This document shows positions 10,588 through 23,318 of a stretch of DNA of 24,847 nt, piece after piece. The stretch covers positions 1 through 24,847 of IMG/VR virus record IMGVR_UViG_3300030104_001316, one strand, 5' to 3'. This DNA comes from a virus. The position numbers and the translations under genes were made by a program. How positions within the stretch are numbered: position 1 is the stretch's first letter; every line of letters begins with the position of its first letter. The notes under the pieces are model-generated. The model searched no databases. It had not been told where the DNA came from and worked only from the letters and a program-made list of their open reading frames with translations.

Positions 10588-10767
10588 ATGGCTAAAACAA
10601 TAAAAGGTGTTAGTTTAACTGCACTAAATAAAAGACAGCAAACAGCTATGACTAAACATTCAAAGCATCATACTGCTAAACATATAAAGTCAATGGTTGC
10701 ATCTATGAAAAAGGGTAAAACTTTTACTCAGTCTCATAAGATAGCTATGAAGAAGGTAGGGAAATAG
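10588..10767 (+). CDS. Very basic 59-aa protein
   Basis: Hand-translated 59-aa frame, one base after the previous stop and with GAGGGG upstream. It holds fourteen lysines and one arginine and no Asp or Glu, plus six histidines. The motif MKKGKTFTQSHKIAMKKVGK forms the C-terminus. It is the first of four adjacent small basic proteins at the end of the late block. Such composition fits nucleic-acid or capsid-interior binding. No named family is claimed. Confidence 0.72.
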   Translation: MAKTIKGVSLTALNKRQQTAMTKHSKHHTAKHIKSMVASMKKGKTFTQSHKIAMKKVGK

Positions 10768-10768
10768 A

Positions 10769-11062
10769 ATGGCTGATACAAAAAAAGACACAAGATTAAA
10801 AAGAGTTGGTGTTTCTGGGTATAATAAACCCAAGAGAACTCCAAACCATCCTACAAAAAGTCATGTGGTAGTTGCTAAAGAAGGAAATAAAATAAAGACC
10901 ATTAGATTTGGTCAGCAAGGAGTTAAGACTGCTGGTAAGGCTAAAGCGGGTGAGTCTAAAAAACAAAAGAACAGACGAAAATCTTTTAGAGCTAGGCACG
11001 CAAAAAACATTGCAAAGGGAAAAATGTTTGCGGCTTGGTGGGCAAATAAGGAGAAATGGTAA
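10769..11062 (+). CDS. Basic 97-aa phage protein (RARHAKNIAKGKM motif)
   Basis: A 97-aa strongly basic protein. Conserved-looking blocks are GVSGYNKPKRTPNHPTKSH (13-32 region) and, at the C-terminus, SFRARHAKNIAKGKMFAAWW ending KEKW. I recall very similar C-terminal blocks (KARHAKNIAKGKMSAAYWANK) in proteins of many marine phages and some large viruses, where they are usually unassigned. It sits among other small basic late genes. A packaged DNA-binding or head-associated role is plausible from position and charge, but the molecular function is unknown to me. Confidence 0.8.
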   Translation: MADTKKDTRLKRVGVSGYNKPKRTPNHPTKSHVVVAKEGNKIKTIRFGQQGVKTAGKAKAGESKKQKNRRKSFRARHAKNIAKGKMFAAWWANKEKW

Positions 11063-11202
11063 TGGCTAAACAAAAAAAAGTAAGCTGGATGTATGGTGGC
11101 AAAAAATATAGTGGAACCTATATTAGAGAAACTAAAGAAGCTATATTTGCTAGAACTACAAATGGTAAAATTAAAAAAATTATAAAGAAGAAGAAGAAGT
11201 AG
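11062..11202 (+). CDS. Small basic protein with polylysine tail
   Basis: Hand-translated 46-aa frame. The ATG overlaps the previous stop (TAATG) and follows AAGGAG. It begins MAKQKKVSWMYGGKKYSG and ends in five lysines. The middle (GTYIRETKEAIFARTTNGKI) could form a small beta sheet. It belongs to the cluster of tiny basic proteins at the end of the late block. Function unknown. Confidence 0.65.
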   Translation: MAKQKKVSWMYGGKKYSGTYIRETKEAIFARTTNGKIKKIIKKKKK

Positions 11203-11204
11203 TA

Positions 11205-11318
11205 GTGCCTAACAAGAAAGCTAAGAACAGAAAAAGAAATCGCTTAAAACTAGCGATACAGAATAAGCGTAGAAAAAGAGAATTGAAAAAATTACAAAAG
11301 GAAAAGAGCAATGAATGA
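11205..11318 (+). CDS. Tiny Arg/Lys-rich protein, GTG start
   Basis: A 37-aa frame with GTG start directly after the previous stop and an AAGAAG purine run just upstream. Seventeen of 37 residues are Lys or Arg (NRKRNRLKLAIQNKRRKREL). Its end overlaps the next gene's start by eight bases, a coupling pattern seen all over this genome. Composition is like an RNA- or DNA-binding basic peptide. The GTG start and short length make it less certain than its neighbours. Confidence 0.5.
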   Translation: MPNKKAKNRKRNRLKLAIQNKRRKRELKKLQKEKSNE

Positions 11319-11877
11319 AGAAATGATGGCACTAATAGAATCTATAGCGAAAACTGGAGGAGAAGGACTTTTAGGTTTCAGTACGAGTCCTAACGTTTTT
11401 CAAGATATGGCAACTTTAGCTAAATTACCTAAACAGATTAAAGATAGAGCTAGTGGGAAAAAAACATATCGGGAATTTTTACTTGAAGAAAATACAGGTA
11501 ATGGCAAAACTTTTGCCGAGTCAATAGGATTAATGCCTTCAAGAATGAGTTTAGAAGAATTAATGCAAGAGTTTACGGAACAATATAAAAAATCTCCACG
11601 CTTACAAGAAAAACCAGAAGCTGCTAAATCTATAGATGATATCATAAAACAAGCTGATATGGCTGAGTTTTTATCTGAAGCTATGGCAGAGAATACTAAT
11701 GTAGATGTTAGTCAAATGCCTATGAAAAAAGATCGTCTTAAATATTCTTCTGATACGATTATAGATTTCTTAAATAGCTTAAGTAGTGGGTATAGAGAAC
11801 CTAGTTTTGAAGAAAGAGTGAGAACATTTCCAGGAAGATTGCAAGATTTAACTAAAGATAAACCGTCTGATTCTTAA
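11311..11877 (+). CDS. Hypothetical 188-aa protein ending the late block
   Basis: A 188-aa mostly helical, mildly acidic protein with AAGGAAAAG upstream of the ATG. No cysteine, no membrane segment and no catalytic motif are seen. MSLEELMQEFTEQYKKSPRL and a later DDIIKQADMAEFLSEAMAE look amphipathic. It is the last gene on the plus strand before the convergent block. It may be a virion-associated or assembly protein, but nothing in the sequence proves this. Confidence 0.72.
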   Translation: MNEEMMALIESIAKTGGEGLLGFSTSPNVFQDMATLAKLPKQIKDRASGKKTYREFLLEENTGNGKTFAESIGLMPSRMSLEELMQEFTEQYKKSPRLQEKPEAAKSIDDIIKQADMAEFLSEAMAENTNVDVSQMPMKKDRLKYSSDTIIDFLNSLSSGYREPSFEERVRTFPGRLQDLTKDKPSDS

Positions 11878-11883
11878 GAAAGA

Positions 11884-11916
11884 GAGGGGCATAGTAAGGA
11901 TAAAACCACACCCCTC
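11884..11916. terminator. Possible inverted repeat in the convergent gap
   Basis: GAGGGG (11884-11889) pairs with CCCCTC (11911-11916) around a 21-base loop, in the 60-base gap between the plus-strand late block and the minus-strand early block. A terminator is expected here. There is no clean T tract on either side and the loop is long, so this is a weak candidate. Confidence 0.28.
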
Positions 11917-11937: not shown

Positions 11938-12114
11938 CTACTGTCTATTTAAAAATTTTGATTTTTTCTCTCTCTCCCTCCTGAGTTGGGAGGGCTTAGT
12001 ATAAAACCTTCGCTCTTCCAGCTCTTCTAATAATCCAGACTCTCTAACTTTCTTCTTAAACTCTGAAATCATTTTAGCTATAGGTTTATTCTTAGCAGCT
12101 TTTACTATAATCAT
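11938..12114 (-). CDS. rpsU: Ribosomal protein bS21, phage-encoded
   Basis: Hand-translated 58-aa basic protein. It begins MIIVKAAKNKPIAKM and contains EFKKKVRESGLLEELEER followed by RFYTKPSQLRREREKK. This matches bacterial S21 in order: the N-terminal beta strand, the (R/K)FK+...(K/S)G(V/L)L helix, and the diagnostic (R/E)FY-x-KPS-x2-+R block. Length is at the short end of cellular S21. A GGAGAG site lies ahead of the ATG, and it overlaps the zincin gene by 23 bases as the last gene of the early block. S21 sits near the anti-Shine-Dalgarno of the 30S subunit, so a phage copy could shift initiation toward phage mRNA; that effect is inference. Phage-encoded S21 is known from virome surveys. 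Confidence 0.92.
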   Translation of the reverse strand: MIIVKAAKNKPIAKMISEFKKKVRESGLLEELEERRFYTKPSQLRREREKKSKFLNRQ

Positions 12115-12502
12115 TGTACAAATCTCTCCATTTCTTTTTCATTTCTCTATCTGCAAAATTATTTGCTCTAATCTCCCACTTATTATCTAAGTACGGATCG
12201 TTACCACAATTTACTGCTACGACAGATGCTTGGTTATATCTAGTTCTAAACTTATCAATGCCATACTTATAGGCATCCATAACATGTTTTGCTTCGTGAA
12301 TTGTTGTTTCAATAAAATCGTAAGCACTTAGCTTTGGATTAAGAACAACTGTATCTTCATCTGGTAAGTAGTAGCCATTACAATTAATAGTATCATCTGT
12401 TGATATTGTAGGCTGTAGGTCATAACATCCTAAAACCCACTTAGCTACCTTTCTTCTAGTCGAGTAATCCGTTTTCAAAACTAACCTTCTTTCTTGTTTC
12501 AT
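12092..12502 (-). CDS. Zincin-like metalloprotease domain (HEAKH)
   Basis: A 136-aa protein with TTIHEAKHVMDAY (H69, E70, H73), a full HExxH zinc motif, and WEIRANNFADRE about 37 residues later. E110 is the likely third ligand. The HExxH...E.xAN.FA layout recalls ImmA/IrrE-type (M78) peptidases. No signal peptide is seen, so it should act in the cytoplasm. It overlaps the helicase end by 47 bases. The ATG at 12502 has a weak ribosome site, while an in-frame TTG at 12478 lies six bases after AGAAGG and may be the true start. Possible targets are a host repressor, a host regulator or a phage protein; none is shown by sequence. Confidence 0.78.
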   Translation of the reverse strand: MKQERRLVLKTDYSTRRKVAKWVLGCYDLQPTISTDDTINCNGYYLPDEDTVVLNPKLSAYDFIETTIHEAKHVMDAYKYGIDKFRTRYNQASVVAVNCGNDPYLDNKWEIRANNFADREMKKKWRDLYNDYSKSC

Positions 12503-13805
12503 GGTCTTGAGCTTCTAATATATCATTGAATAACTTACAACTATCTCCAGAGTATCCCATCTCTACACTTCCTGGAGTTCCATATCTATTCTTTGATACT
12601 ATTAACATCATTTCATTTTGACCCCATACCCTACCATCTGAATCTGCTTGACCAAATCTAGTAACATAAGGGTAATGAGTGAACACCACCATTTCAGCAT
12701 CTTGTTCTAAAGAACCAGACTCTGCTAAGTCTGATAATCTTGGAGTTGAATCTATTCTATGTTCAATGTTTCTGTTCAATTGAGATACTAATATTACACA
12801 CATATCGTGTGATTTAGCAAGCCATTTATACTTCATAGTTGTTTCTCTTATCTTATGTCTTACGTCTCTTGTATCATTAGAAGAATATTCTATTAAACCT
12901 ATGTGGTCATCTATAATCACATCTGGTTTTATTCTTTTTACTTCTTCAAATGTAGACTGTAAATCACGAACAGAATCATACATGAATAGCTTATCTTTAT
13001 ACGTTTCTCTTATATAGTCTATTACAGACCTAACCTCTACCTTAGAGGTAGTGGCTCCATGTCTTAGATTTCTATACGATAGACTGTCAGATTCCATAGC
13101 TATAAACTTCTTCATCATCTCCGTATTGGGCATCTCTCTGTTTAACATCATAACCCTCTTACCACTAAGTACTAACTCTCTAGCAACATTAGCTGCTACA
13201 GTAGTCTTTCCATTCGCTGGTCTGCCTGCTATAATAGTAATCTCTCCACGAGTCATGCCATATATAACACTATCTAGTTTAGATATTCCAGTTTTTATAA
13301 TACCTCTACTCTTAAATATAGAATCATCTGTATCTTCAAGTAATGTATCTAAATCAAACTCATGTTTAGATGGCTTTGTGTTTATTATATTTCCAGTATC
13401 TGTATTGATCCGCTCTATTATATCGTCAAACTCTACAGAGTCATCGTTGGCTTTACTTATAAGCCTATGAGAATTATCAACAATATTTCTACGAAGATAA
13501 TATTCATATAGTTTTTTTGCTAGATACTCTGCATTTGCTGTAGTGACTCCATCTGTACCTATTCTAGCTATCTCATAAGTATAAGTCCTATCAGGATAAT
13601 TACGCTTAGGAAAGTTAGTTGATACAGATACGAGGTCTACAGGTTCACCTTTTTCATCTAATTTACATATTGTTTTCCAAATATCTTTATTAAAATCATT
13701 ATAGAATACATTATTGTCTGGTATCCACCTCCTTAATGACTCTATGTATTCTGGTTCATTTATGATACAATATAATAGAGCTTCTTCTGTGTCTTTATTG
13801 TGCAT
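12456..13805 (-). CDS. dnaB: Replicative DNA helicase, DnaB family
   Basis: A 449-aa hexameric helicase. Residues 1-100 match the DnaB N-terminal domain (EEALLYCIINEPEY and DIWKTICKLDEKGEPVDLVS). The RecA-like domain has Walker A GRPANGKTT (194-202), Walker B VIIDD (296-300) and VILVSQLNR (337-345). It also has DLAESGSLEQDAEMVVF (359-375), typical of the DnaB C-terminal motifs. Length is close to cellular DnaB. The ATG immediately follows the stop of the previous gene with GAGG as ribosome site. It unwinds the phage fork. No primase or polymerase is seen in the window, so these are either host-supplied or lie outside. Confidence 0.95.
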   Translation of the reverse strand: MHNKDTEEALLYCIINEPEYIESLRRWIPDNNVFYNDFNKDIWKTICKLDEKGEPVDLVSVSTNFPKRNYPDRTYTYEIARIGTDGVTTANAEYLAKKLYEYYLRRNIVDNSHRLISKANDDSVEFDDIIERINTDTGNIINTKPSKHEFDLDTLLEDTDDSIFKSRGIIKTGISKLDSVIYGMTRGEITIIAGRPANGKTTVAANVARELVLSGKRVMMLNREMPNTEMMKKFIAMESDSLSYRNLRHGATTSKVEVRSVIDYIRETYKDKLFMYDSVRDLQSTFEEVKRIKPDVIIDDHIGLIEYSSNDTRDVRHKIRETTMKYKWLAKSHDMCVILVSQLNRNIEHRIDSTPRLSDLAESGSLEQDAEMVVFTHYPYVTRFGQADSDGRVWGQNEMMLIVSKNRYGTPGSVEMGYSGDSCKLFNDILEAQDHETRKKVSFENGLLD

Positions 13806-20132: not shown

Positions 20133-21437
20133 CTATATGTTTATTCCTATTTCTGTATATTCTCCAACTATTTCAGGGTTATAGAATTTTAATATTCTTT
20201 TCACTATGTAGGCTCTTAAGTCTGTGTCTACTTCTAATAGGTGGAAGAATTCATCTACAGCTAATGGAGTCATTGAAGTTTTAGATTTCTCTATATATTG
20301 ACTTAGTGCATAGGTCTTTTTGTAATCGTTGAAGGTAGTTATATTACCTCTGTCTAGTCTAGCTAGTTTTATTCCTGCTTCAACTATTCTCTGACATATC
20401 TCTATCCAATTTATAATCTTATCTGCATCTAGTGTTCCAGAGTGATGTCTAAACTCTATAGAGCCATGTATTATCCTAGAGTGCATATTGACTCCACAAT
20501 ATCTAGAATCATTATACTTCTCGTAAGAGGGGTAAGTATCGAACGCTTGATACCAAGTGTCTATGAAATCTTGGTCATCACAAATATCCATTATGTGTCC
20601 CATAGTCATTGGTATTCTTTTACACCATCTACTATTTCTCCTAGAGTCTGGTAGCATCTTATATATTATCTGTTCACTTAGCTTTGAGACTGCTAATATA
20701 TATTTAATCTCTCTCCACTTTAAGTCTCTAGCGTCTATGTGTATATGCATACCACAACTTCTATTGACTGACCACCCTATTCGTTTTAAATCTGTAGTGA
20801 TATTATCAATAGATTGGTATAGCTCATCTCCAGATAAACCACCTCTAGTTATAAATTCTCTGCCAACACCATCTCCAGAATCTATACTTCCATCATGAAC
20901 TACTCTCCAGTTGTTCCTAAACTCCCAGTTACTTTCGTAGTAGCCGTATTCCATAGCTTCATAGTCATCATTCACAGCTTCTAGTTCTAAGCCTACTGCT
21001 CTGCTAAACTTATTTCTATTAAAGCATTTAGACTCGTGTAAGTCTACATTACCATAACTATCTAAGTCTACATCTTCTCCCTCTCCAGGATAGCAATCCT
21101 CACAGTAGTATTCTTGGTGTGTCTCAGACCATATAGCGTAGTCTCTATTGACAGTATTATCACAACTCTCACAATATGTGAATATCTCGTTATAACAATC
21201 ATCACAATATGTCTCTCCATTGGTAGTGTATACGTCATCAATGGGGTAATCATCGCAACAAGACTGGCATTCGTAATGTCTCTCGCTGTAGCAATCTTCA
21301 CAATAATCTTCTCCATGAAAGCCACAAAGACGCTCACTCTCAGAGATGATTCCTCGACAACCTTCACACCTTATATTCTCTTCTTCTCTAGTTTGATTTT
21401 TCTCTTGATATGTATCATTATTATTATCTGTAGGCAT
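20133..21437 (-). CDS. Amidoligase (COOH-NH2 ligase) with three N-terminal zinc modules
   Basis: A 434-aa protein, start behind AGGAG. Residues 24-115 carry six CxxC pairs (C24/27, 46/49, 57/60, 78/81, 89/92, 112/115), three LIM-like zinc modules with the repeating end YCEDCY. From about 147 the catalytic domain matches Amidoligase_2: GLELEAV (149-155), HDGSI (181-185), GREFITRGGLSGDEL (192-206), SCGMHIHIDARDL (227-239) and SIEFRHHSGTLDADKI (326-341). These are the acidic, His and Arg residues of a glutamine-synthetase-like ATP-binding ligase. The family makes amide or peptide bonds between a carboxyl group and an amine. An amidotransferase of class II lies two genes upstream. The substrate is unknown; zinc modules may select a protein or nucleic acid. 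Confidence 0.9.
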   Translation of the reverse strand: MPTDNNNDTYQEKNQTREEENIRCEGCRGIISESERLCGFHGEDYCEDCYSERHYECQSCCDDYPIDDVYTTNGETYCDDCYNEIFTYCESCDNTVNRDYAIWSETHQEYYCEDCYPGEGEDVDLDSYGNVDLHESKCFNRNKFSRAVGLELEAVNDDYEAMEYGYYESNWEFRNNWRVVHDGSIDSGDGVGREFITRGGLSGDELYQSIDNITTDLKRIGWSVNRSCGMHIHIDARDLKWREIKYILAVSKLSEQIIYKMLPDSRRNSRWCKRIPMTMGHIMDICDDQDFIDTWYQAFDTYPSYEKYNDSRYCGVNMHSRIIHGSIEFRHHSGTLDADKIINWIEICQRIVEAGIKLARLDRGNITTFNDYKKTYALSQYIEKSKTSMTPLAVDEFFHLLEVDTDLRAYIVKRILKFYNPEIVGEYTEIGINI

Positions 21438-21445
21438 ATATACTC

Positions 21446-21772
21446 CTATGATATAGCATAATGACTAGCAGAGATTAAGATAAACACAGAGTGTGATATC
21501 TCTCTTAACCAACCAATACGTTTTAGTGTACGATACATATTCTCTGGAGATAGGTCATCTACGATCTCGCCATTGACCTCAGAGATTCTATCTGCTAAGT
21601 GAGACATATACTCCTCGATATTCTCAGATTCTACGAATGGATTTTTCTTAGCTCTATTATAGAGCATCTCCATTACATATCTCTTAGACTTTATCTTTAT
21701 AGGAGAATCTATCCCTACAATAACAGCCATTCTCTTTTTCTTTTTATATCCACTTTTTGTAAGCAGAGCCAT
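21446..21772 (-). CDS. Hypothetical 108-aa protein between amidotransferase and amidoligase
   Basis: A 108-aa protein with GGAGG ahead of the ATG; its start lies inside the 3' end of the amidotransferase gene (29-base overlap). Basic start (KSGYKKKKRMAVIVGIDSP), then a helical body (EMLYNRAKKNPF, YMSHLADRISE) and LKRIGWLREISHSVFI. The placement makes it a likely co-translated part of the amidotransferase-amidoligase run. No zinc, ATP or catalytic motif; no family recognised. Confidence 0.72.
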   Translation of the reverse strand: MALLTKSGYKKKKRMAVIVGIDSPIKIKSKRYVMEMLYNRAKKNPFVESENIEEYMSHLADRISEVNGEIVDDLSPENMYRTLKRIGWLREISHSVFILISASHYAIS

Positions 21773-22853
21773 AAGAACCTCCCTCTATCTGAAGTTGCTC
21801 ATCTATCTTTACGTCTCCGTGGCAACTCTCGCAGTAATAGTAATCACCCTCTCGCCTTGCTATGTCTGCATAGTCTCCACAGATACAACAGTCTAAGCCT
21901 ACATCTTTAATCTTACTATCTAGATTAGTTCTATCTACTTCACAATCTAGACAAGAGTAGTCTTCTCCATATTTGATTAAGTCTATATACTCTGTCTTTT
22001 TATTACAATATATACAAATAGGTCTCTCAGAATAATCTACAAACTCTGTACTATTAAAATAGTCGTAAGAATTGTAGCCATAGTAATTCTTGAGAGGAGT
22101 ATAGTTGTACTCTAATGTATTAGACTCTATCTTCTCTAACTTAGCGTTGGTGCCTGTATCAGAGAACTTATTTACATCATATATATAATGTGTATCTATC
22201 GTAACATCATATATATAAGCCTTGACTCCATATTTAGATAGAGCCTTCTTGAGATGTTCTTTTGTAGAGGCGTAGAATAATACCTTAGCTTTTTTCCAAT
22301 AGGCAACTGCTAAGTCTCTACCTCCCTCATGTAATAGATTAAGTTCAGTCTTAGAATTTTTTATCCAAGACAGTGCATAATCTCCATATATCTCATCTAG
22401 AGCTTTCTGTAAACTCTCGTTATCATTTATAAAATGAAACAAGTATTGAGAGTCTACCTCATATAACTCTTTATGCTTTTCGTCTATGTCCTCGTGATTG
22501 TATATCATACCATTATGAGCACCAATCGTATTACCCACTACAAATGGGTGAGCATTACGAGCTGTAATGGCTCCCTCTGTAGCGTGTCTCGTATGGAGCA
22601 TACATATACTAGTATCATATCTATATTCATTAGATATCTTGTTATACTCTGGTGAGTCTACAAATACATCAGAACTCTGTAGAGTCTTGTATATGATAGG
22701 CTCATCTTTTTCTGAGATAACTGATACTCCCGTAGAGTGCTTGCCTCTATCGGCAATACCTCTTAGTAGAGACTTAGATATCTTACGAACTTTTCTCATC
22801 TGGTGCCTGTTTTGCTCGTACGGCTTTTTGGCGAAACCAGCTAGTCCACACAT
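21744..22853 (-). CDS. Class II glutamine amidotransferase with C-terminal zinc ribbons
   Basis: A 369-aa protein, start behind AAAGGAG. It begins MCGLAGF, placing the catalytic Cys at residue 2, as in Ntn amidotransferases of the GlmS/PurF/AsnB type. ADRGKHSTG (35-42), HTRHATEGA (87-95), NAHPF, AHNGMIYN (112-119), EVDSQ (132-136) and GDYALSW (157-163) are all intact. After residue 230 no synthetase or sugar-isomerase domain follows; instead come a tyrosine-rich linker and two zinc ribbons (C280/283 with C301/304, and C322-C325 with C341/344). It should release ammonia from glutamine for an acceptor enzyme. The amidoligase two genes downstream is the natural candidate, which is inference. Confidence 0.9.
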   Translation of the reverse strand: MCGLAGFAKKPYEQNRHQMRKVRKISKSLLRGIADRGKHSTGVSVISEKDEPIIYKTLQSSDVFVDSPEYNKISNEYRYDTSICMLHTRHATEGAITARNAHPFVVGNTIGAHNGMIYNHEDIDEKHKELYEVDSQYLFHFINDNESLQKALDEIYGDYALSWIKNSKTELNLLHEGGRDLAVAYWKKAKVLFYASTKEHLKKALSKYGVKAYIYDVTIDTHYIYDVNKFSDTGTNAKLEKIESNTLEYNYTPLKNYYGYNSYDYFNSTEFVDYSERPICIYCNKKTEYIDLIKYGEDYSCLDCEVDRTNLDSKIKDVGLDCCICGDYADIARREGDYYYCESCHGDVKIDEQLQIEGGSYGSAYKKWI

Positions 22854-22901: not shown

Positions 22902-23318
22902 CTATATCCAGTAATACTCTAGGTTATCACGTTCTCTCCAACCATACTGTGAGTAGAACTCTTTGTCTTTTCTCAGTAGATTGCTTCTGTGAGAAGCATG
23001 AAATCTCTCGTTACCTAACCAATGTGGCATCTCTACATCTTCTGAGACTCCTATCATTTCCATAGTATTATTATAACCTCTCAGAATCCACTCCTCGATC
23101 ATCTTGTTCTTGTAGAGAAGTAAGGCTTCCTCGTAGCCACGCCACATAGTCACGGCAGGGTGATTTAGCCACCCTCTATAGCTTCTACCTGTCTTTGTAG
23201 GTACTCCAGATAGAGCGTTAAATATTTGTAGAGCTTCGACTCTCTGTTTACCTAGTCTCTTATAATCTAAGACTTGAGCAGAGAGAGTAAAATCCTCGTA
23301 GGGTAAAAATGTCTGCAT
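22902..23318 (-). CDS. MSMEG_6728-like / pyrimidine-dimer DNA glycosylase-like protein
   Basis: A 138-aa protein with the signature of a family seen in phages and bacteria: MQTFLPYEDFTLSAQVLD, then YKRLGKQRVEALQI (19-32), NHPAVTMWRGYEEALLLY (52-69), and at the end ERFHASHRSNLLRKDKEFY followed by GW (126-127). The HASHRSNLLRKD...FY...W part resembles the C-terminus of T4 endonuclease V (DenV, HEASIAISQARLDE...WYKYYGK). T4 DenV itself incises DNA at UV dimers. Whether this branch has glycosylase activity is not shown. It is close-packed with the next membrane-protein gene (stop and start adjoin). Confidence 0.85.
   Translation of the reverse strand: MQTFLPYEDFTLSAQVLDYKRLGKQRVEALQIFNALSGVPTKTGRSYRGWLNHPAVTMWRGYEEALLLYKNKMIEEWILRGYNNTMEMIGVSEDVEMPHWLGNERFHASHRSNLLRKDKEFYSQYGWRERDNLEYYWI

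Follow-up and report, generated by a model that had tools for sequence, protein, structure and literature searches.

What does a 58 amino acid frame at the end of a viral gene block encode, and is the protein its only product? The window, i.e. the whole stretch of DNA analyzed, is a 24,847-base virus record and is a linear fragment. The frame encodes a ribosomal protein of the bS21 family. In addition its 3′ half displays a 63-nt element that is conserved at the nucleotide level, and related contigs retain this element where the S21 gene is broken. Positions of the features discussed are listed in Table 1.

Table 1. Positions of the bS21 gene, the embedded element and the neighboring features in the window
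Feature	Position	Strand	Basis or remark
bS21 gene, 58 aa	11938..12114	minus	open frame and profile matches
Constrained nucleotide element, 63 nt, S21 codons 31–51 of 58	11962..12024	minus	codon invariance, relatives without S21, alignment A6
P1 helix, 5′ arm GAGCTGGAAGAGC	12012..12024	minus	
P1 helix, 3′ arm GCCCTCCCAACTC	11983..11995	minus	
P2 hairpin, 5′ arm CCCTCC	11989..11994	minus	holds the anti-SD core CCUCC
P2 hairpin, 3′ arm GGAGGG	11976..11981	minus	SD-like
Invariant purine strip AGGAGGGAGAGAGA	11969..11982	minus	unchanged whether coding or non-coding
Zincin-like HExxH protein, 136 aa, overlapping the S21 start	12092..12502	minus	DUF6782 match
DnaB-like replicative helicase	12456..13805	minus	yardstick gene and tree gene
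Terminator-like hairpin, operon end	11884..11916	minus	GAGGGGTGTGGT / ACTATGCCCCTC, then TCTTTCTT

The bS21 gene and its gene block

A sequence-only reading of this DNA had proposed that the 58 aa frame is a phage-encoded ribosomal protein S21. The frame is found exactly where that reading placed it, on the minus strand, which was left unstated; stops interrupt the plus strand across the same positions. The motifs it named are present, SGLLEELEER at residues 26–35 and RFYTKPS at residues 36–42. The profile search it had proposed as a check gives 38.3 bits with PF01165 (cut-off 27, E-value = 1.1e-9). TIGR00030 gives 34.1 bits, which is above its cut-off of 28.95, and phrog_21469, annotated as ribosomal protein S21, matches with an E-value of 4.8e-10. 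Comparison with PDB sequences shows 37 distinct sequences at E ≤ 1, and the top one is a bS21 chain (E-value = 2.6e-6). The profile and PDB matches are thus not due to chance. Residues K5, N9, F19, K20, R35, F37, Y38, K40, P41 and R45 are invariant in four phage sequences, E. coli and the PDB 8rd8 fragment, and this core set, common to phage S21 and cellular bS21, places the protein in the bS21 family. The predicted model displays helices at positions 12–26, 28–37 and 41–57 (mean pLDDT 75.5, pTM 0.41); the top three Foldseek matches are small-subunit ribosomal entries and are weak, the lowest E-value being 0.33. The frame at 11938–12114 encodes a bS21 protein, and the claim of a phage-encoded S21 stands on three profile libraries and on PDB chains. 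This gene is an ordinary member of its kind, and phage bS21 genes are already well known.

The S21 protein has no match at E 0.01 among the phage collection records, and a 786-aa plus-strand protein and the exonuclease have none at E 1e-5 in the same collection. Thus no close isolate of this phage group is found there. The bacterial S21 genes nearest to the phage S21 are 28%–46% identical, in a scan that is biased towards E. coli-like S21. A first genome scan for S21 relatives gave none and a second gave distant S21 genes only, thus no host is named.

S21 is the final gene of a minus-strand block and faces convergent plus-strand genes. The same block has matches to DnaB, a Sak-like annealing protein, an exonuclease and a RusA-like resolvase, from which we infer that it is probably an early block. 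The zincin reported next to S21 is present: the 136-aa HExxH protein shares 23 nt with the S21 gene and matches DUF6782, a putative metallopeptidase family, at 31.2 bits (cut-off 27). S21 and the zincin are found together downstream of DnaB in 20 loci of viral contigs, including one (L008) whose contig holds just the end of DnaB. The 83 loci that have S21 of other types show no zincin match, thus the link between zincin and S21 is not a general one. As a speculation, the zincin might remove host bS21, which would fit a speculation made in the accessible text of PMC9976891.

With respect to translation signals, GGAG, GAGG or AGGA is present within 18 nt upstream of 33 of the 47 putative starts (one start was placed one base off and is scored as a miss); in the controls the figure is 18% for random positions in sense orientation and 97 of 532 for internal ATGs. 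Most genes therefore have an SD-like core upstream, and the wording that nearly all of them have strong GGAG sites was overstated.

The fold of the terminator-like hairpin at the operon end was computed on the identical L002 sequence. In related loci (L003, L007, L013, L016, L018, L026 and others) a hairpin of the GGGGUGUAG / CUGCACCCC type keeps this shape while its letters vary. Elsewhere in the window, four small, very basic frames (59, 97, ~47 and ~37 aa) occur in series at 10588–11319 on the plus strand, near the end of the plus-strand block. An Amidoligase_2 protein (PF12224, 83.8 bits) is at 20133–22853 on the minus strand with a glutamine amidotransferase-like protein nearby (phrog_4736, E-value = 2.8e-36); these are possibly a peptide- or wall-modifying pair. 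Positions 22902–23318, also minus, display a match to pyrimidine dimer DNA glycosylase (PF03013, 84 bits), a light-damage repair enzyme.

Codon invariance and loci without S21

The sequence-only reading was right about the phage bS21, the SD-rich genome and the zincin, but it overlooked the unusual part of this locus, the constrained nucleotide element. The codon test compares the window with 13 relatives; L002, L004, L008, L009, L011, L014, L015 and other mostly near-identical loci were omitted beforehand. In these 14 genomes, 14 of the 28 conserved degenerate codons of S21 are invariant vs 16 of 210 in DnaB. The five other yardstick genes show 8%–18% invariant codons: RusA 9/50, Sak 12/93, the exonuclease 21/149, a 190-aa gene 4/53 and a 134-aa gene 2/24. 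The zincin aligned badly and gave no usable columns, thus it does not serve as a yardstick. The 10-codon window with the highest invariance is S21 codons 41–50 (8/10), and the highest outside S21 is 2/7. Codons 41–50 are identical across the 14 distinct S21 genes save for the third positions of codons 43 and 44, and the six-codon run 45–50 has by far the strongest invariance in S21. Rare codons are chosen here despite the usage of the phage: CCC accounts for 11 of 213 Pro codons and TCC for 13 of 596 Ser codons.

A scan with the zincin alignment gives 26 loci on 25 contigs. S21 and the element are both present in 20 of these, the element without S21 in four, and neither in two. The four loci that have the element without S21 (L313, L317, L327 and L328) are on four contigs from four samples. 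In these, the first 30 S21 codons are gone, the zincin reads into the remnant, and the S21 frame is broken by stops; the non-coding element is followed by a strong terminator-like hairpin. PF01165 has no match up to E 10 across the four contigs, the records of which may be incomplete. The two loci with neither (L326 and L329) have the zincin followed by other small genes, the first of which displays CxxC pairs. A separate record, IMGVR_UViG_3300030708_000851 (80,282 bases; L018/L025 and L026), has two differing copies of the DnaB-zincin-S21-element arrangement, and is therefore a chimeric assembly or else two phage genomes joined together.

A DnaB scan covered the best 80 of 144 loci. In the phylogenetic tree of DnaB, L328 and L346 are one contig, L355 ends at a contig edge, and the label of L347 as having neither feature is wrong, as L347 and L018 denote one contig region. 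The four S21-less contigs form one clade (100/99) inside the group that has S21 and the element (90/92). Therefore the element persisted after the loss of S21. The sister group on the tree has a divergent S21 and the element is absent. In this sister clade (L348–L354, L356 and L358) S21 is downstream of DnaB and has an N-terminal extension that includes AKPI or PKPI; neither the element nor a zincin match was found in these loci. The 63-nt sequence is thus retained by relatives without S21 and is under strong selection at the nucleotide level, a conclusion we hold with high confidence.

Two predicted, mutually exclusive helices and a purine strip

The comparison of secondary structures uses 15 chosen rows out of 24 element-bearing stretches. 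In alignment A6, P1 pairs columns 1–13 with columns 30–42, and 80.2% of cells are paired over 14 distinct forms vs 22%–44% in slid versions of the helix. Changes on both sides occur in four pairs, and the covariation score is 0.174 vs 0.102 for shuffled alignments, with none of 500 shuffles reaching it. P1 is mismatched at column pairs 8–35 and 11–32 in all 11 coding forms. These sites are second codon positions of E33/S42 and E34/P41 and are fixed by the protein. In all three distinct S21-less forms the same columns turn into A-U and G-C pairs, which is expected of a helix freed from coding duty. In the window itself just 10 of the 13 pairs form.

P1 and P2 share nucleotides and are mutually exclusive. 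For P2, 97.6% of the cells in 14 distinct sequences pair; it shows no covariation and is the structure selected by RNAalifold; in the window its stability is slightly greater than that of P1 (−10.7 vs −9.7 kcal/mol). The S21-less forms do not have the CCUCC core (they have CCCUUC or CCCCUC), and P2 is weaker in them, being weak in two of the three. Loss of the core may reflect mere release from coding. P2 was at first read as the sole conserved structure, and this was changed, as the S21-less loci weaken P2 and make P1 perfect. The fold of the whole S21 gene is not unusual (z = −0.55) and that of a 56-nt piece is mildly so (z = −1.81).

The strip AGGAGGGAGAGAGA is identical at 14 of 14 positions in all eight pairs compared, where fourfold sites of DnaB are 47%–64% identical. 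Its AGAGAGA half is accounted for by neither P1 nor P2. AGGAGG occurs nine times in sense orientation in the window, eight times without an annotated start, thus an SD-like match alone means little.

Several other readings of these sequences were rejected. The strip is not a start site for a downstream gene, as a start codon is absent at usable spacing. P2 is not an intrinsic terminator: the sequence after it is AGAGAGAGAAAAAA (minus strand) or CTTAGTATAA (plus strand) and not the T-run that follows a terminator GC hairpin, and the one terminator-like site in the scan is elsewhere. As a mimic of 16S rRNA in the same sense, the element aligns to E. coli 16S no better than shuffles do (233 to 277 of 300 are equal), and in the pairing sense 27 of 300 shuffles at best equal the alignment. 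Elsewhere in IMG/VR, among the matches listed (80 of 101 stretches), the pattern AARCCCTCCN6AGGAGGG is found mostly in what appear by eye to be short terminators. A relaxed-pattern match, L333, is within an unrelated long frame and is due to chance.

A second S21 family (the L053 family, best 80 of 84 loci scanned) is 39% identical to the window S21 and is similar in sequence to the Bacteroidota-phage type. At the same codon positions, its 25 distinct genes have CCC in 23, TCC in 23 and AGG for the second Arg in 24. Of 40 distinct genes in the family, 23 hold at least five of the six P2 pairs. In 26 Arg-Arg genes 80% of pairs are formed vs at most 72% in 1000 synonymous draws, a comparison that ignores kinship and in which the draws contain the tested codons themselves. 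L108 has Gly replacing Arg and still forms a perfect stem. In L057–L102 and others, the very rare CGA (15 of 1101 Arg codons) precedes AGG at the P2 site, and the resulting stem always has a C-A mismatch. The P2 hairpin is absent from six phage reference S21 genes (seven were fetched; L302 was read at an earlier motif and dropped) and from E. coli rpsU, and none of 80 rpsU genes checked has a CCCTCC-GGAGGG hairpin.

Possible function and comparison with known systems

In the 3′ half of the S21 gene two messages overlap, the bS21 protein and the 63-nt element. The element probably works as RNA, in which a long P1 leaves the SD-like strip free or P2 hides part of the strip. P2 could also imitate the SD/anti-SD duplex that lies next to bS21 on the 30S subunit, with bS21 or a 30S subunit that lacks bS21 binding there; this is a tentative step, drawn by analogy. 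From the binding of bS21 to OLE RNA, the SD/anti-SD control found in Flavobacterium and the mimicry by P2, it is proposed that free bS21, or the 30S platform without bS21, would bind the mRNA at the element. Such binding would set S21 output or message lifetime, P1 would be the alternative state that frees the strip, and, as in a published case from another phage, the phage S21 would then take the place of host bS21 in 30S subunits. Our best guess is that the element may sense bS21 or 30S subunits and thereby regulate the mRNA that carries it. The chain as a whole (bS21 gene, selected element, RNA folds, and regulation by SD/anti-SD mimicry) is given a probability of roughly 0.4.

Could the element be nothing more than part of an ordinary phage bS21 gene, with the codon pattern due to constraint on the protein, biased codon usage, close relatedness or chance? 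Many phages have bS21 genes (PMC6375957, PMC9723584), the amino acids of the stretch show complete conservation across the main group, and within S21 alone the invariant codons inside and outside of codons 41–50 differ just moderately. Against this, DnaB at equal divergence holds its conserved degenerate codons invariant at only 16 of 210, the codons retained in S21 include rare ones, and four contigs retain the sequence without the protein, which largely refutes this quite improbable explanation. An overlapping frame or a programmed frameshift, with the SD-like strip upstream of an A-run, has in its favor that the +1 frame is open over codons 41–50 in all 18 coding loci checked. It is rejected as highly improbable because that frame is not conserved in start, end or residues: it has no shared start, its ends vary, and its amino acids change where S21 is silent (third positions of codons 43 and 44). 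The A-run after the strip is also not constant.

Two further explanations accept the selection and place the function elsewhere. The element may be a DNA site, i.e. an imperfect inverted repeat that is bound by protein for replication, termination or regulation. Inverted repeats that bind proteins also yield compensatory changes, the element is located at a convergent junction in the window, and a model match on the opposite strand (18–19 bits) reflects its palindromic nature. However, the conserved strip is on one side of P1 and has no counterpart opposite, pair 1–42 is G-U in 4 of 14 distinct sequences, and the element is inside a gene block directly ahead of a terminator-like hairpin; a DNA site is a minority possibility that deserves some weight. 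The element may instead stabilize the mRNA or form the start of a 3′-end small RNA, where the strip binds the 30S subunit via the anti-SD and blocks exonucleases in the manner of STAB-SD. AGGAGG at 11982–11977 has no annotated start 2–15 nt after it, a terminator-like hairpin is within ~100 nt downstream, and the predicted duplex with the E. coli 16S tail is −11.4 kcal/mol. A strong SD without a start stabilizes some Bacillus mRNAs (PMC3997798, accessible text). This explanation would require a 5′–3′ exonuclease in the host, the remaining AGGAGG copies in the window are unremarkable, and the covariation of P1 is left unexplained. It is a minority possibility of similar weight to the DNA site.

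Under the RNA-regulation reading, the phage S21 gene would also serve as a regulatory RNA. In one lineage this RNA would have outlived the protein, its remnant addressing the anti-SD platform. This fuller account is doubtful, though possible. If true, the S21 remnant is a free-standing structured RNA at the ribosome site that the lost protein would occupy, and it would be a clear case of a coding-embedded RNA function surviving protein loss. The reason that phages have bS21, and its effect on translation in infected cells, are still open questions in the field. A bS21-responsive or 30S-binding RNA inside the gene would be a compact, testable module, as synonymous recoding uncouples RNA and protein, and the relatives without S21 supply the RNA alone. 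To our knowledge, and from the literature searched, this embedded element that outlives its protein is undescribed. No RNA element inside a phage rpsU was found in that literature, the scope of which leaves subscription papers mostly outside.

The comparisons below refer to the accessible portions of the papers cited. The bS21 of phage HTVC008M is incorporated into E. coli ribosomes and strongly reduces in vitro translation (PMC6375957), and replacement of host bS21 in ribosomes by phage bS21 has been proposed (Mizuno 2019, PMC6375957). For other phages it has been hypothesized in print that bS21 directs initiation towards phage messages (PMC6375957, PMC9723584), and preferential translation of phage transcripts has been proposed for the bS21 of Bacteroidota phages (Chen 2022, PMC9723584). 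The window S21 is similar to the bS21 of HTVC008M and of uncultivated viruses in its bS21 profile match (PMC6375957). Unlike the phages described there, the relatives found here are contigs of mostly <39 kb, with S21 after DnaB and the zincin and with the embedded element. The S21 of pelagiphage Mosig does not have the element found in the window S21.

A likeness to Bacteroidota-phage bS21 (PMC9723584) is seen in the sequence-similar L053 family, where rare codons that form a related hairpin occupy the same position. The differences are several. An aromatic residue at position 54, which marks anti-SD-sequestering bS21, is not conserved here: the residue is F in 2 of 14 distinct genes (the window S21 and its near twin) and R in 12. 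Most genes here use SD sites, unlike those of Bacteroidota phages, and S21 is beside replication genes and not structural genes (PMC9723584).

In Flavobacterium, a feedback on rpsU links SD/anti-SD pairing and bS21 (PMC9976891). The signal there lies ahead of the start as an extended SD (below −13 kcal/mol), whereas here the element occupies part of the 3′ half of the coding sequence. Leader-type autogenous elements of ribosomal proteins are in the 5′ UTR; here again the position differs, at codons 31–51 of 58. The similarity to STAB-SD of Bacillus is an SD-like sequence with no start codon, but STAB-SD is in 5′ leaders of mRNAs and the element is near the 3′ end of the operon with a conserved helix adjoining it (PMC3997798).

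The OLE RNA has a hairpin that imitates the SD/anti-SD duplex and is bound by bS21 (PMC12054373). Three OLE mutants in which the SD/anti-SD letters were changed and pairing was kept still bound bS21 (PMC12054373). The element has no match in Rfam, and OLE is detected neither in the window region nor in three of the S21-less loci. The element displays similarities to OLE P6 in having a hairpin with a CCUCC anti-SD-like arm and an SD-like arm, and in having mutually exclusive folds (PMC12054373). Unlike OLE P6, it is 63 nt long and is located inside the bS21 gene, and is a candidate bS21-binding mimic.
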